From a virus: a stretch of DNA of 21,131 bases. Where the stretch lies: positions 1-21,131 of the IMG/VR virus record IMGVR_UViG_3300043409_000099; one strand, given 5' to 3'. Shown one piece after another: positions 14,796 through 21,021 of this stretch (position 1 is the stretch's first letter; each line of letters opens with the position of its first letter). The notes below the pieces were generated by a model. It worked only from the letters and a program-made list of their open reading frames with translations. It searched no databases and had not been told where the DNA came from. The translations under genes were made by a program, and so were the position numbers.

Positions 14796-15173
14796 TTATG
14801 CACGCGATACGCCACGCGGGTCGGCTACGACAGCCTCAATTGAGTCGTCGTTCATAAGACGGTACTCCACACCATTCACACTGACACGAGTGCCAGAGTA
14901 TGCGGGGAACACCACGTAATCACCTACCTTGCACCAAGGGCCGTTTGGAAAACGGGTAAGGTCTGAGTAGGCTTGATCGCCCATGTCAAGCACAAGGCCA
15001 ACAGTGGACATGACACGTTCTTCACGCATCGTTTGCTTTGCTTTGAGGATGCCCATCTCACCGAGGGTTTCTTCAATTTGCGGCAAAGCAATCAGCAGCC
15101 GGTATCCAACGGGCTTTGGAAGCTGGGCTTCCACTTCGTCGTCGGTAACAGCGTTTTCGACTTGATCAGTCAT
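14796..15173 (-). CDS. GroES-like co-chaperonin
   Basis: 125 residues. ATG at 15173 has GGAAGAAG upstream and overlaps the previous gene by 8 bases; an in-frame start at 15227 would overlap it by 62 bases. The Cpn10 fold is readable: 'PKPVGYRLLIALPQIEETLGEMGILKAKQ' (first strands and a mobile-loop region), 'STVGLVLDMGDQAY', and 'GPWCKVGDYVVFPAYSGTRVSVNGVEYRLMNDDSIEAVV', matching the GroES G-x-V-x-x-x-G and V-G-D-x-V-x-F/Y elements. It should cap GroEL during folding of the capsid protein, as T4 gp31 does. The loop differs from bacterial GroES, with 'MREERVMS' before the V-G-L-V strand. It lies between portal and scaffold genes. Confidence 0.87.
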   Translation of the reverse strand: MTDQVENAVTDDEVEAQLPKPVGYRLLIALPQIEETLGEMGILKAKQTMREERVMSTVGLVLDMGDQAYSDLTRFPNGPWCKVGDYVVFPAYSGTRVSVNGVEYRLMNDDSIEAVVADPRGVSRA

Positions 15174-15366
15174 TGTCTTCTTCTTCCATTTGAGAGCGCG
15201 AAAGGTCTTTGGTGGTTTGGATAGCAAGCTGGAGACCCCGAATCCTGCCTACTACTTCCCGGTATTCAGAGTGGTCTTTAGCTCCTCCGTTTGCCAGAAA
15301 CTGGGTTGCCGAGGAGACATCCTCCTCGTGTTTCATGATGAGCACGTCAAAGACGGTTTTGGCCAT
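15166..15366 (-). CDS. Small conserved phage protein after the portal gene
   Basis: 66 residues; ATG at 15366 with AAGGAG six bases upstream, only three bases after the portal stop. The sequence MAKTVFDVLIMKHEEDVSSA is followed by 'FLANGGAKDHSEYREVVGRIRGLQLAIQTTKDLS' and an acidic end (EEEDND). It is predicted almost wholly helical. The FxxNGGAKDxxxYRxxxGxIRGL pattern is common in my memory of phages with this gene order, always beside the portal. It may assist portal assembly. Function unknown. Confidence 0.85.
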   Translation of the reverse strand: MAKTVFDVLIMKHEEDVSSATQFLANGGAKDHSEYREVVGRIRGLQLAIQTTKDLSRSQMEEEDND

Positions 15367-15369
15367 GGA

Positions 15370-17784
15370 TTACTCCTTTCTACCTTGAGGTTTTGGTGTG
15401 GCTAACACCTTGAGCGCATCAAGTTTCATGCGTTGTGCGGCTTGAGTTTCTTGTGACTTGACACGATTGGCTTCTTTGTCAGCCTCAATCTTGACGCGCT
15501 CTTTCTCCATGATGAGTTTTGCTGCGGCAATCTCTGCGTCGGTCTGGTCTTTCTGCGCCTTGCGAGTGACCTCCATCTCTTGCACCTTGACCTTGGCCTG
15601 CTCCAACTGGAACAACGGGTCTGCGGCTTGCTGCTGGGCTTGTGTCTGCGCAGCTTGCTGCTGGTGCTGTTGAGCCAACTGCTTGCCGCCATCGGCAATG
15701 AGTTTGGACAGTTGAACCTCGACATCCTCGGGCAGTTCTTCGTCTGGCGGTGGCAAAGTGACGCCAAGGCGTTCTTCCATCTGCTTGCGATAGCTGAACC
15801 CCAAGTGCTCGGCAATGTGCGCCTGCAACGAAGCCATGATCTGCTGAGCCTGTGGGTTCTGGCCAATCGTTTGCGCAATCATTGGGTCTTGCATAAACGA
15901 CGTGTGGGTCGCAATGTGTGCCTCATGGTCTTGGTGGATAAACGCTTTCATCGGTTTGCCCACCAACGCTGACATGTTTTCAGACACTGGGTCACGTGGC
16001 TTCTGATCTTCGCTCGTTGGCACAATCTTGTCGGCGTTCTTAATGCCCAGCACCTCGATCATCTGGCGGTGCAAATAGGGCAAGTCGTAAATCTGTGGTG
16101 CAGACTGCGACATCTGGAACACAGCTTGGTACTGCACCACACGCTGAGCCATCGTGCTGCTGTTGGGGTCGCTGACGGGGATGACATCCACCATCGCGTA
16201 GTCCATCTTGCGAGCTTTGGCCAGACCGGTCTCTGGCTGGTAGCCGTAGTCCTCGGGCGCTTCTTCTGCAATAATCTTTTTCAAGAGCTTGAACTCTTGC
16301 TTCATCGCGTAGTGCACACGGGCTTGCACCGCTGCCATGGGCTTGAGTGTGCGTTCCAGCAACGCCAGCGTAGTGCCCACGGGCGCGTTTGCGCTCATGT
16401 CCGATATGTTCATGTCGCTGATTGCACCGAGGCGACGGCCTTCTTCGGTGATGCGCTGTAACAACGCAAGCAGTGTCTGTGACGGCTCCTTGTACGGGAG
16501 CATCATGATGTTGTCTTTGATCGAGCCGCTTGGCACGTCCACGTCGCGGAACTCGCCCGGAGCAATCGGTGTGTCGTCGCCTTTAACGCGCAAGCCACGG
16601 GCTTTCATGCCGCCCGGCAAGTTCGACAGCGTACCTGCGTCCACCAACTGGCGAATGATTGAAGTGCCAGCGCGAGCGTAACCGCCGATGATATGGATCA
16701 GACCCAGACCATAGAAGCCAAACCCCGGCACATAGACATAGTGCACGAAGTGGTCGTCCTTTAGCCGCAGTGGGTCTTCTTCTTTCCAGTTACGGCGCAC
16801 GGCCAACACCTCAGTGGTGCCCCGGTCAATGGTCACAACGTACGGTTTAGGTAACTCGTCTTCCTCGTCGTCCACGCCATCAATCAGCATGTCAACGCTA
16901 ATCTCCAACAACGTATACCGGTCGTCATTTTGAATTGTGTATCCGCCTTCCTCGGCCTTTTTCTTCTCCACGTCTGTGGGGAACGACTGGGGGTCACCAA
17001 GGTCAATCTCACGGTAGAACCCGCTGGCCATCAGCTTGTCCATCTCATTCTTTGTCTTGCGCATCACGTGGGTGACACGCTCTGCGGTCTCAATGTGCGA
17101 CGCACCGTACGGCACCACAACATCTTCTGCTGGCAGGTAGATAGAGACTTGACGGCCCAGCAGCGGGTCAAAGTACACCTTCTTGAACGCGCTACCTGCA
17201 AGCCCCAGTGAGTACAACATGCGCTCATGCTCTGGCCGGTACTCGACCATACGCTCTGTCAACTGATAGTTCATATCGTTGCGCACGCGCTCAGCCGCTT
17301 CTTCCTTCTCCTTTGTGGTTTTGCCAAGAATCTTTGTCTTGACAGGGCCAGCGGCAGGGAATGTCTCGCTCATGGTCTCAGCTTGGAACCGTATCGCAGC
17401 TTCTGCCAGCACGGTTGAGTACACACCGCAGGCGTCGTCCCACGGCTCAGTGCGCTCTTCATACTTGAACCCCAGCACCTCCAGACCCTTGACAAACGTG
17501 TCAGCCCAGTCTTTCCGGGCCACCATGTCAGCCTCAAACAACTCAATCAGGTCGGTTGACAGGGAAGTTAACTTGCCCTCGTCGATATGCTCCGCAAGGT
17601 TAGCCTCAAAGTCAGACTCGTCCTTCTCATCCTCGGCCTCGCCCATGATGATCTCTGCACCACCATCTGGCAACATGTTTACTGTGGACTCCTCGTCCAT
17701 CTCAATCTCCATGCTGTCGCCCAAACTCTCCAGTCCTTGCGGCGCGGAGTACAAGCCCTTACTCATTGAATCTGCTGCTGCCAT
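15370..17784 (-). CDS. Portal protein
   Basis: 804 residues; ATG at 17784 with AAGGAC upstream, ten bases after the terL stop. After an acidic N-terminus (residues 24-85) the core has 'PWDDACGVYSTVLAEAAIRFQAE', 'MLYSLGLAGSAFKKVYFDP', 'DVVVPYGAS', 'HYVYVPGFGFYGLGLIHIIGGYARAGTSIIRQLVDAGTLS' and 'ISDMSANAPVGTTLALLERTLKPM', the stem and wing elements of long portals. Residues about 700-800 are a Gln-rich stretch and then a long Lys/Glu/Ala coiled coil, like the C-terminal barrel of P22-type portals. Twelve copies should form the DNA channel at one vertex, docking terminase and later the adaptors at 7730-8686 and perhaps 6244-6879. The length favours a podovirus-like virion. Confidence 0.93.
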   Translation of the reverse strand: MAAADSMSKGLYSAPQGLESLGDSMEIEMDEESTVNMLPDGGAEIIMGEAEDEKDESDFEANLAEHIDEGKLTSLSTDLIELFEADMVARKDWADTFVKGLEVLGFKYEERTEPWDDACGVYSTVLAEAAIRFQAETMSETFPAAGPVKTKILGKTTKEKEEAAERVRNDMNYQLTERMVEYRPEHERMLYSLGLAGSAFKKVYFDPLLGRQVSIYLPAEDVVVPYGASHIETAERVTHVMRKTKNEMDKLMASGFYREIDLGDPQSFPTDVEKKKAEEGGYTIQNDDRYTLLEISVDMLIDGVDDEEDELPKPYVVTIDRGTTEVLAVRRNWKEEDPLRLKDDHFVHYVYVPGFGFYGLGLIHIIGGYARAGTSIIRQLVDAGTLSNLPGGMKARGLRVKGDDTPIAPGEFRDVDVPSGSIKDNIMMLPYKEPSQTLLALLQRITEEGRRLGAISDMNISDMSANAPVGTTLALLERTLKPMAAVQARVHYAMKQEFKLLKKIIAEEAPEDYGYQPETGLAKARKMDYAMVDVIPVSDPNSSTMAQRVVQYQAVFQMSQSAPQIYDLPYLHRQMIEVLGIKNADKIVPTSEDQKPRDPVSENMSALVGKPMKAFIHQDHEAHIATHTSFMQDPMIAQTIGQNPQAQQIMASLQAHIAEHLGFSYRKQMEERLGVTLPPPDEELPEDVEVQLSKLIADGGKQLAQQHQQQAAQTQAQQQAADPLFQLEQAKVKVQEMEVTRKAQKDQTDAEIAAAKLIMEKERVKIEADKEANRVKSQETQAAQRMKLDALKVLATPKPQGRKE

Positions 17785-17793
17785 GATTTGTCC

Positions 17794-19356
17794 TTAGTAG
17801 TACCCGCCTTTGCGGGATTTGAAATATCGAATCTCATCTGGCTCATCCGAAGGCAATCGGATGAAGCCCCCTTGGCGAAACCGCATCAGCGCCATCACCG
17901 TCGAGTCCACCAAGTCATCGTTACTCATGAATGGGAAACCTGCAATCTCTTCTACAACCTCCTCGGCCCAGCGGGTGTCAGGCACCCAGCACAGCCCAGA
18001 GCGCACAATGTCTGCCACAGAGTTTAACCGTGCCAGCTTGTCTCCGCTACCTCTGTGCGGAGTGAACTCCCCTACAGGAATACCTGTACGTCGCATCTCT
18101 TGGTACAACTGCGTACCTGCGGATTTTTTCTCCACAATGAACGCATCTGGCTCCCACTCCTTGTACTCAGCATACGCAAGTTCCTTCAACTCTGGGAACT
18201 CCAGACGTTTCTTAATCGAGTTCAGGAGGATGATGTTGTGGCACCCCTCTGCCTCGTTCATGAACACGCCCCACGTAGTCAGGGCAGTAAAGTCAGCGCG
18301 GTTGTGGCTCTCAGCCGCCGCGTCCAAACTCATGATCACGTACTCACATGTTGGTGGGTCTTCCTTCTCCCAGCGTTTCCACCAGTCACGCTTAACGACT
18401 GATGCTTCTTCTGCGGTGGGATTCTGCTGGTACTGTGCGTTCCACTGGAACGTAGGCATCGACGCCTTGGTGCGCAGCAGCGCCTTCATGTCAAAGAACT
18501 CAGGCCACAGCGGTTTTTGCACGATAGAGCCGTCAGTCTGCTCCGTGTCCACGATGGCCGGGAACTCAATCACCTCATATTGATCAGAGCCCTCGTTGGC
18601 CCTCATGTCATTGGTGACGCGCCCTGTCAGGTCATTCTGGTGCCACCTCGTTTGCACAATGGCAACCCGCCCACCGGGCATGAGACGGGTACGAGCACCG
18701 TACGTAAACCACTCGTAGGCTTTGTCAAACACATCGTAATTGCCGTTAATGATGTCTTGCTCGTTATGAGGGTCGTCAACAAGAAGCAAATCAGCACCAC
18801 GGCCAGCCAAAGCAGAACCGACACCGCAAGCAAAATACTCTCCGCCTGCGCTTGTGCTCCAGCGTCCTGCACTCTTGGAGTCTGTGGAAAGCCCGACGTT
18901 TGGAAAGACAAGTTTGTAGTTATCTGAGTCAATGATGTTCCTGACCTTGCGGCCAAAATCCACGGCAAGGTCTGTGGTGTGCGAGACCATCAGCACCTTC
19001 TTGTTCGGGTACTTCCCCAAGAACCAAGCTGGGAAATAAATAGACACCATCTGAGATTTGCCATGGCGTGGTGGCATGTTCACGCACACACGATCCTTGT
19101 TCCCCGCAGCAATGTCCATGAGCAAGTTAGCCAACCTGCGGTGGTGCTTGCCCACTATGTAATCGGGCTGCATGTGCTTGCAAAATGCAATCAGATCGTC
19201 AAAACATGCCTTGGCTGTCTTGCGGCTCTCAATAATGTCTGCAATTTTCTCAATCTCAGCCTGTTCCTCGGGCTCGTAGGCGTCAAGATTGTCCAGCATC
19301 AACTGGATTTCGGCCTCCGTGAAGTCATCTAGGCCAAGAAGTGCGGCCTCAGTCAT
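17794..19356 (-). CDS. terL: Terminase large subunit (ATPase and nuclease)
   Basis: 520 residues. ATG at 19356 has GGAAG six bases upstream and overlaps terS by 8 bases; a TTG start at 19404 would overlap by 56. The ATPase domain has a Walker A PPRHGKS (residues 95-101), Walker B LLLVDD (190-195) and the coupling motif QTRWH (235-239). The nuclease domain has the RNase H-like acidic residues: Asp345 in MSLDAAAE, Glu409 in FIVEKKSAG and the Asp cluster NDDLVDST (479-486). The motor translocates DNA through the portal and cuts the concatemer. All key residues are present. It ends ten bases before the portal gene. Confidence 0.96.
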   Translation of the reverse strand: MTEAALLGLDDFTEAEIQLMLDNLDAYEPEEQAEIEKIADIIESRKTAKACFDDLIAFCKHMQPDYIVGKHHRRLANLLMDIAAGNKDRVCVNMPPRHGKSQMVSIYFPAWFLGKYPNKKVLMVSHTTDLAVDFGRKVRNIIDSDNYKLVFPNVGLSTDSKSAGRWSTSAGGEYFACGVGSALAGRGADLLLVDDPHNEQDIINGNYDVFDKAYEWFTYGARTRLMPGGRVAIVQTRWHQNDLTGRVTNDMRANEGSDQYEVIEFPAIVDTEQTDGSIVQKPLWPEFFDMKALLRTKASMPTFQWNAQYQQNPTAEEASVVKRDWWKRWEKEDPPTCEYVIMSLDAAAESHNRADFTALTTWGVFMNEAEGCHNIILLNSIKKRLEFPELKELAYAEYKEWEPDAFIVEKKSAGTQLYQEMRRTGIPVGEFTPHRGSGDKLARLNSVADIVRSGLCWVPDTRWAEEVVEEIAGFPFMSNDDLVDSTVMALMRFRQGGFIRLPSDEPDEIRYFKSRKGGYY

Positions 19357-19996
19357 CAAAACTTCCGTTTTCTGGCTCAAACGGGGCTTGTTGCGCGGAT
19401 ACAACAGGTTTTAGGCCCATTTCTGCGTCTACGTCAATGACATCACCGCCAATTTCGACTGCATCAGTGGCCAACTCAGGCTTTTGGATGAGTCTTTGGA
19501 GCTTGGCACGCAACCGCGCCTTCAATTCGTCCGTCGATTGGTGCGTAATGGTCACTTCAGCGCGGTCTGTAAACAACCCCACATCGGAATGCTTGCCCAA
19601 AAGCTCCAATGCACGGATTCTGATGCGTGGGTCAGGGTTCTGAGACTCCTCCAGCAGCCGGTTGGTCACCATGTGACGCACCTCAAGAGCATGTGTGACC
19701 ACAGCCCTACCGTATTCGTCAAGATACGAACGGATGTTTAGGAGTGAGGCAGGTGTCAGTGATGACGCACGTGCATGTGATACCGCGTTGCTGGCGTTGT
19801 GCGGACTATTGGCGTATGCCGTGACGATTGCAGCCGCTGCTTGTGCATCTTCCTCGTTGGGTTCCTGCACCCCCAACCCGTGTTCCTCTAATAGAAGGAT
19901 GGAACGGCAAGCAGCCTCGGCCCTTTCTCGCAGGTCGAGGTATGGAATGTCGGGGATGATCTCCACCCCAAATTCTGGTGTGAGTTCAATTGTCAT
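19349..19996 (-). CDS. terS: Terminase small subunit
   Basis: 215 residues from ATG at 19996; a TTG nine bases upstream is possible. The ribosome site is weak (ACGGAC) and the leader from the predicted promoter is only about 24 bases. 'LRERAEAACRSILLLEEHG' near the start and a central helical section precede 'DPRIRIRALELLGKHSDVGLFTDRAEVTITHQSTDELKARLRAKLQRL' (residues about 126-175), typical of small terminases: a helix, then a strand-turn, then an oligomerisation helix. It should recognise the packaging site on phage DNA and hand it to TerL, whose gene overlaps by 8 bases. The nearby G-run repeats are candidate recognition sites. Confidence 0.82.
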   Translation of the reverse strand: MTIELTPEFGVEIIPDIPYLDLRERAEAACRSILLLEEHGLGVQEPNEEDAQAAAAIVTAYANSPHNASNAVSHARASSLTPASLLNIRSYLDEYGRAVVTHALEVRHMVTNRLLEESQNPDPRIRIRALELLGKHSDVGLFTDRAEVTITHQSTDELKARLRAKLQRLIQKPELATDAVEIGGDVIDVDAEMGLKPVVSAQQAPFEPENGSFDD

Positions 19997-20026
19997 TGTG
20001 CGCAAGTCCGTGTAGACCGATGCGTA

Positions 20027-20065: not shown

Positions 20066-20245
20066 GGGGGTGTTCCACGTGGAACAAGGGGGTGGGTCTA
20101 TGTAGGTATCTGGAAAGATGTTATGGGGGGTAGTGCCACAAAACTACTGAAAAATTTTTATGGGTAACGTATAAACATGATAGGGGGTAGTCTCTACGTG
20201 AATGTAGAGTTATTTTATGAAACGTATTACTTTCTGGGGGTGGTG
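20066..20245 (+). repeat. Five G-run repeats, GGGGGT(A/G)GT-like
   Basis: Same-direction copies lie at 20066-20074 (GGGGGTGTT), 20088-20097 (GGGGGTGGGT), 20126-20135 (GGGGGTAGTG), 20183-20191 (GGGGGTAGT) and 20236-20245 (GGGGGTGGTG). A further run of seven G is at 20301-20307. They are confined to the gene-free region next to terS. They could be protein-binding iterons, packaging sites or G-quadruplex-forming DNA. Confidence 0.7.
20071..20086. promoter_or_regulatory. parS: parS-like centromere palindrome
   Basis: TGTTCCACGTGGAACA is a perfect 16-base palindrome that matches the near-universal bacterial chromosomal parS consensus, TGTTnCACGTGnAACA, bound by ParB. Only one copy is seen in the window, and no parA or parB gene is visible here. 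The site could recruit host ParB to the phage genome or be bound by a related phage protein. Confidence 0.8.
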
Positions 20246-20424: not shown

Positions 20425-20493
20425 AGAGGCCTCGGTTGAGCAATGCGGACATACGAAGCGCGGTTCAATCGGGTAATCCTTGAAAGGGATTGT

Positions 20494-21021
20494 ATGAAAG
20501 CAGCTATCGTGAAACTGTCAGCCTCGACCGTGACCAATATCAGCACATGGGCCAACAAGTCTCTGACCACTGAGAAGGCCAAGGTCAAGGCGGTTGACAG
20601 CTTGCATGCGGATGGTGTGACGGCAGCAATGCTGCGCGCTCCTAAAAACGGAGAGAGCACAGTATTGTTTGACAGTGTGAAGGTTGGCATCGTGCTCGGG
20701 TTCACTGCATCGGTGCAGGCACTGCTTAAGAAGGACACGAAGGGGCTGAGTGATTCGCAGAAAACTGAGAAGCGCCACTGGTCGATGCAAATCGGCAGCA
20801 AGATGAAAGACTTGCGCAATGCACTCACAAGGCGTGAGACACAGGGTAAGGACTCTGATGGTGCAGGGGACGATAAGTCAACATGGGAAAGCACTAAGCG
20901 CAAAGTGCTGGCTGAGATCATTGCTCAGGCACAGAAAAAGGAGGCCAGCACGGTAACCAACATGCCAGCCTTCATCAAGGACTTGCAGTCCGCACTGGCA
21001 AGGATTCCAGCTACCGCCTAA
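20494..21021 (+). CDS. Unknown phage protein in its own transcription unit
   Basis: 175 residues. ATG at 20494 has GAAAGGGA six bases upstream; an in-frame ATG at 20443 would lie only about 12 bases after the predicted transcript start with no good ribosome site. The protein begins MKAAIVKLSASTVTNISTWA and is Lys/Ala/Thr-rich, mostly helical and basic. It has 'LFDSVKVGIVLGFTASVQALLKKD' (residues about 58-81), a charged 'SQKTEKRHWSMQIGSKMKDLRNAL' and a C-terminal 'FIKDLQSALARIPA'. No known domain is recognised. It is the only plus-strand gene here, has a strong promoter and terminator, and is flanked by the 19-base palindromes, so it is probably an early or regulated gene, perhaps DNA-binding. 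Confidence 0.85.
   Translation: MKAAIVKLSASTVTNISTWANKSLTTEKAKVKAVDSLHADGVTAAMLRAPKNGESTVLFDSVKVGIVLGFTASVQALLKKDTKGLSDSQKTEKRHWSMQIGSKMKDLRNALTRRETQGKDSDGAGDDKSTWESTKRKVLAEIIAQAQKKEASTVTNMPAFIKDLQSALARIPATA

Follow-up and report, generated by a model that had tools for sequence, protein, structure and literature searches.

A chromosomal-type parS site at the terminase promoter of an aquatic phage and in its relatives, a candidate loading site for host ParB

The terS promoter region of the window

The window, i.e. the whole stretch of DNA analysed here, is the entire IMG/VR virus record IMGVR_UViG_3300043409_000099 (21,131 bases) and represents a fragment of a phage genome with genes for TerL, portal, GroES, capsid and tail fibre proteins. 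Judged by the homology of its TerL, portal and GroES proteins, the phage is a relative of the HTVC023P-type phages, in which a GroES-like co-chaperonin is a core gene (PMC9599517). Its closest cultured relatives by TerL (45–47% identity) were 023Pt_psg01, the Pelagibacter phages HTVC027P and HTVC023P, and DSL-LC04, and no close DNA relatives of the window were found among annotated phage records. The following features surround the site described in this study:

14796..15227, minus strand: GroES-like co-chaperonin
15370..17784, minus strand: portal protein
17794..19404, minus strand: terminase large subunit, TerL (phrog_38, E 4e-101)
19349..20005, minus strand: putative terminase small subunit (terS) ORF, assigned by place and gene order
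20054-20027, minus strand: predicted sigma70-type terS promoter (TTGACA, 16 bp, TACTAT), from a consensus match
20066..20070, plus strand: left G-run GGGGG abutting parS, retained in relatives without parS; a G-run/parS composite occurs in many family members
20071..20086, no strand: parS palindrome TGTTCCACGTGGAACA, an exact match to TGTTNCACGTGNAACA, with intact counterparts in L219 and L221
20088..20096, plus strand: right G-run element GGGGGTGGG, from the alignment of relatives and the composite scan
20103..20137, plus strand: conserved right flank (GTAGGTATC..AAAGATGTTATGGGGGG in relatives), from the alignment of relatives
20443..21021, plus strand: divergent 192-aa ORF on the far side of the intergenic region, function not assigned

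The terS ORF yielded no match in Pfam or PHROG. The -35 region of its predicted promoter (TGTCAAACTTCCCT) was conserved across 26 viral stretches. Several GGGGGTRGT-like repeats are present at 20066-20245, in the intergenic region between terS and the gene at 20443, and a consensus scan revealed a terminator-like hairpin, CTCTACGTGAATGTAGAG, at 20192-20209, which is followed by TTATTTTATG.

parS is usually regarded as the chromosome's own tag. The palindrome at 20071-20086 has no mismatch to the chromosomal-type consensus and is unique, as no second position in the whole window came within fewer than three mismatches of parS. Using a first-order Markov (dinucleotide) model of the window, we calculated a chance expectation for an exact parS of 1.2e-8 per position and 2.5e-4 per window. 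The perfect parS palindrome noted in the initial annotation was confirmed. The rarity argument given there, based on 4^16 possible sequences, set the specificity too high, because the site has merely 14 fixed bases and is palindromic. It is located between two divergent genes, and its distance to the -35 box of terS, previously given as 17 bases, was measured as 16 bp.

The site in close relatives and in a primase gene

The intergenic region was alignable throughout in relatives with a TerL identity of about 90% or more. They have conserved the promoter side (TGTCAAACTTCCCTAYNGGGGGTGTT) and the opposite side (GTAGGTATCC..AAAAGATGTTATGGGGGG), with 10-15 variable bases in between. parS is absent from the homologous spot in most close relatives, where it is replaced by TGTTCTACATAAACG, TGTTCTATATAAGAG or TATCACACGTGGAAGA, and the 63.7-kb record G001 (TerL 94% identical) contains no parS anywhere. 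Given its absence from this spot in most of the nearest relatives and from G001 altogether, the site is dispensable or host-dependent. Because the G-runs are retained in relatives without parS, they seem to form a regulatory element of their own. At the spot homologous to window positions 20071-20100, where the window has parS, the short segment AAACGCAGAGTTAA appears to be inverted (TTAACTCTGCGTTT) between the close relatives L005 and L007/L011, in the manner of a flipped hairpin loop.

Scanning for the conserved flanks recovered two further relatives with about 82% flanking identity and about 82-84% identity in terS. One of them (L219) carries TGTTCCACGTGAAACA at the homologous spot, an exact parS whose sole difference from the window is at an N position, and the other (L221) carries TGTTCCACGTGAAACC with one mismatch. 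The initial annotation had named absence or degeneration in related phages as a refuting outcome, and the answer is divided: the site is degenerate at the homologous spot in most relatives with more than 90% identical TerL, but intact there in L219 and L221. Other relatives have it at a different place in their genomes, and it is found upstream of terL in distant clades as well. Initially, we favoured a chance palindrome, with none of 80 TerL-selected relatives containing parS near terS within two mismatches. A fast-evolving spot between two G-runs would then have become a perfect palindrome in one phage, which agrees with the unrelated bases at this spot in most near relatives; moreover, GTGTT is part of a conserved element in many relatives, so that only about 11 new bases would have been needed.

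Analyzing whole records of the window's relatives located parS about 20 kb from the terS spot, without mismatch in G002 and with one mismatch each in G003 and G036:

L227 1501-1516 (= G002 45262-45277), L231 1501-1516, and L232-L263: intragenic parS in the primase-polymerase/DUF927 helicase gene of sister phages

The product of this gene matches DUF927 and, weakly, a LigD-type primase-polymerase domain. Within the gene, GTTTCACGTGAAAC codes for V-S-R-E-T, a loop which is variable in the aligned distant homologues (VGIQN, ILPDD, VPYDK). The homologues encoding V[SP]RET retain the DNA core GTTTCACGTGAAAC to an amino acid identity as low as about 70%, and the exchange of S for P in L243 and L267 alters an N position of parS alone. 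Where the T codon has been lost (L240, L244 and L289), the synonymous positions have drifted too. In a test conditioned on amino acids only, the VSRE codons exhibited a synonymous identity of 0.88 in pairs with less than 75% nucleotide identity, vs. 0.48 on average over the gene, which placed them ninth among 483 windows of codons; the sequences share ancestry. With a position in about the top 2% of windows among related sequences, the codon constraint at VSRE appears supportive but not overwhelming.

Distribution of parS across the phage family

The parS pattern was present in at least 120 stretches of IMG/VR, compared to 34 for the reversed palindrome, and a composite with 17 fixed bases, GGGGTGTTNCACGTGNAAC, in at least 119 stretches vs. 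about one expected from the control. Among the matches listed, the AT-rich ones to the composite were mostly intergenic sites of diverse family members, beside terS or terL, and the TerL proteins of the composite-carrying members were 43-69% identical to that of the window. Because the GGGG prefix of the composite skews the scan towards G-run promoters, we assembled a set by TerL homology alone. This set represents a sister clade, termed clade A, which was picked with a query TerL from a parS-bearing phage. In 65 of its loci the sequence extends 900 bp or more beyond the start of terL, and the best match was scored in the last 1.6 kb upstream. A parS was found there in 29 of these 65 loci, which are not independent inside one clade, 18 times without mismatch and 11 times with a single one; the remaining loci showed no match with two mismatches, one with three, and otherwise only matches with four or five. 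None of three control palindromes occurred at up to two mismatches upstream of terL in the 65 loci. Comparing 30 such sites, we observed 11 invariant fixed positions, while N5 (C/T), N12 (A/G) and the outer T1/A16 varied and G9 was changed in two sites. This pattern of free N positions and otherwise fixed bases across relatives is that of a chromosomal-type parS, and the bimodal mismatch counts together with variation where ParB sites tolerate change indicate selection for a parS-type site.

The cultured phage HTVC027P, which was grown on SAR11 strain HTCC1062, contains CGTTTCACGTGAAACA, with one mismatch, in the gap that separates two small genes close to terS (16412-16427), and this site is common to some HTVC027P-like contigs. 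The site TGTTACACATGTAACA of HTVC023P and that of MW202426, with one mismatch each, are probably due to chance and were excluded from the convincing sites. The text of the publication on HTVC023P-type phages (PMC9599517) contains neither "ParB" nor "palindrom".

We also selected 42 long records on the basis of homology. A parS with at most one mismatch was present in 15 of them, convincingly in 13, compared to none with the reversed-pattern control. Every one of the 13 convincing records has a single parS; two apparent sites in G060 are one site duplicated by a 4.2-kb terminal redundancy. The site is located at the terminase genes in G053, G068, G069, G070 and G072, and in the primase gene in G002, G003, G036 and G060; in pelagiphage-type records, it precedes terL by 3.5-5 kb. 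None of the 13 convincing records combines a terminase with a primase site. Two parS sites were present in some records that had been selected for containing parS (G054-G056). Moreover, arrays of 3-5 exact copies of TGTTTCACGTGAAACA lie upstream of terL in three distantly related phage contigs with about 26% identical TerL (L113 2657-3444, L169 10535-11462 and L183 240-961), and no ParB_N was found in these short contigs. In a TerL tree of 92 rows, which includes some long branches and unsure forks, the presence of parS requires eight changes, six of which are forced by well-supported branches, suggesting that parS was gained and lost at least six times in the family.

A chance palindrome was finally rejected on the basis of the L219 and L221 sites, the primase sites, the composite enrichment, and the counts in clade A and the 42 records with their controls. 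In addition to the low expected count of 2.5e-4 and the sites preserved at the homologous spot of L219 and L221, the family-wide recurrence, the lack of two-mismatch intermediates and the clean controls render this explanation highly improbable. The comparisons show that parS recurs and is under purifying constraint, as read from the aligned genomes, either at the terminase promoter or in the primase gene, and without parA or a canonical parB. We conclude that the palindrome is very probably a selected, ParB-type site.

Partition genes, possible roles and known systems

The initial annotation stated that no parA or parB is present in the window, which holds true but is uninformative alone, the window being a 21,131-base fragment record. 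Searching beyond it in 26 records, we detected neither a ParA-type ATPase (PF13614) nor a tyrosine integrase (PF00589), both of which were recovered from 14 of 14 positive control genomes. No match to PF02195 (ParB) was found in the window's clade (G001, G002, G003, G036 and G060), and the longer relatives contained no canonical ParB. We observed neither the ParA nor the canonical ParB of a self-sufficient ParABS partition module. Segregation as an extrachromosomal prophage, another proposal of the initial annotation, is not supported, considering the missing tyrosine integrase and ParA in the 26 records and the isolation of the cultured relatives as infecting phages.

PF02195 yielded only weak matches to a divergent ParB_N-like protein of 284-289 aa in part of clade A. 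Proteins of this type, which combine an HTH-like stretch with a C-terminal coiled coil, are encoded at L456 865-1731, L457 877-1737 and L458 1501-2352. The protein is absent from the parS-containing records G002, G003, G036, G060, G072, G080, G082 and G083 and present in G071, G074, G075 and G076, which lack parS. Because it occurs with and without parS alike and is missing from many parS-containing records, it is an unlikely partner of the site, and we rejected it as such for lack of association across the members. More generally, the palindrome might be read by a phage protein, e.g. the terminase small subunit, a late regulator or the ParB_N protein of clade A. The site does adjoin terS, part of clade A has the ParB_N-like protein, and a DNA-binding phage protein of unrecognised fold could read a palindrome. 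However, the ParB_N protein does not follow the presence of parS, mere coincidence would have to explain why the site agrees with the bacterial consensus and tolerates change at just the N positions, and parS also occurs within a primase gene; we regard this explanation as improbable.

With a parS-type site apparently under selection and ParA and canonical ParB missing, use of host ParB, as suggested in the initial annotation, is the best reading. We therefore propose, with a probability of roughly 0.6, that the site functions as a host-type parS and is a candidate loading site for host ParB, with less certain consequences for timing or genome handling. In the first step, the chromosomal ParB of the host would load on the phage parS as a CTP clamp. 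Such binding is likely because the sequence equals the chromosomal consensus and ParABS is present in about two-thirds of bacterial species (PMC7333895). As to the hosts, scanning genome contigs by DNA pattern and TerL gave a single match, L628, which lacks parS. This contig (TerL 72% identical) belongs to the MAG of an uncultured member of the Rhodobacterales, which weakly hints that some phages of the clade infect alphaproteobacteria.

In a second and weaker step, the loaded ParB clamps might slide along the adjacent phage DNA and repress the terminase promoter early in infection. Multiplication of the genome might then titrate the limited ParB pool and release the packaging genes, so that parS would act as a copy-number timer. 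A precedent comes from Pseudomonas aeruginosa, where ParB represses the promoters adjoining the intergenic sites parS3 and parS4, while intragenic parS is not repressive for adjoining genes at the native ParB level (PMC5521831). The near-terminase sites in several lineages favour a local role, whereas the primase location does not fit terminase-promoter control; we retain the timer only tentatively as our first choice of function.

The primase sites favour either a role at the genome level or a decoy. Alternatively or additionally to the timer, ParB loading may tether, compact or position the phage genome, the sole role fitting the intragenic primase sites. In this model, ParB-CTP clamps loaded at parS, perhaps together with SMC or ParA, would position, tether or compact the phage DNA or label its packaging region, and any regulation of terS would be incidental. 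About one site per genome would suit such handling, the arrays of 3-5 copies in L113, L169 and L183 resemble chromosomal parS clusters, and sites in the primase gene cannot serve as operators of the terS promoter. Against this, close relatives do without parS, and such handling of the genome is conceivable but rather doubtful. In the decoy model, multiplying phage parS copies would strip ParB from the host origin and block segregation, division or origin/SMC functions, and the position of parS in the phage genome would not matter. This agrees with sites varying in place between terminase promoter and primase gene, yet at about one per genome, and copy-dependent parS incompatibility is known for SGI1 vs. 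IncC (PMC10954446). Many copies would be expected of a decoy, though, but most genomes have one, and its repeated placement beside the terminase in several lineages points to a local role, making a decoy unlikely.

The repeated occurrence of parS in an apparently lytic aquatic phage family, usually as one copy, often by the packaging genes and without parA or a canonical parB, suggests that a host segregation protein is used. A bolder version, that lytic aquatic phages including those of SAR11 repeatedly acquired the host centromere and employ ParB-CTP clamps as a copy-number switch or packaging device, is conceivable at clearly less than even odds. If selected parS sites in lytic-looking phages are real, viruses would exploit the ParB-CTP clamp, ParB would be predicted on phage DNA during infection, and these phages would allow a test of what ParB clamps do outside segregation. 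They would also offer a testable reason for host support of or resistance to these phages, including relatives of the abundant SAR11 phages.

The open-access literature searched contained no description of a host-type parS in a lytic phage. Extrachromosomal prophages of mycobacteria reportedly encode their own ParA and ParB for prophage partition. They likewise have parS sites on phage genomes, but together with their own parABS, whereas no ParA or canonical ParB was found here. The phage sites share with the parS of chromosomal ParABS systems (ParB/Spo0J) the identical 16-bp sequence, the tolerance at N positions, occasional clusters and occasional intragenic V-S-R-E-T copies, but they lack parA and canonical parB, are usually single, and lie near the terminase or in the primase gene instead of near oriC. 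In SGI1, parS mimics recruit the ParB of the IncC plasmid, with stabilising and owner-displacing effects (PMC10954446). Like these phages, SGI1 is a mobile element with parS and without parAB. SGI1 borrows the ParB of another replicon, with a copy-number-dependent effect on the owner of that ParB, and in a hijack of this kind the phages, in which parS occurs without parA or a canonical parB, would receive ParB from another replicon; SGI1, however, mimics a plasmid parS and is maintained, while the phages carry a chromosomal parS and look lytic. The P. aeruginosa sites parS3 and parS4 (PMC5521831) resemble the window in that parS adjoins a -35/-10 promoter, but they control host genes, whereas a phage promoter would be the target here. 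Finally, the HTVC023P-type pelagiphages (HTVC023P and HTVC027P; PMC9599517) share TerL, portal and GroES homologues with the window, and HTVC027P has its CGTTTCACGTGAAACA near terS, although the window's TerL is only about 45-47% identical to theirs.
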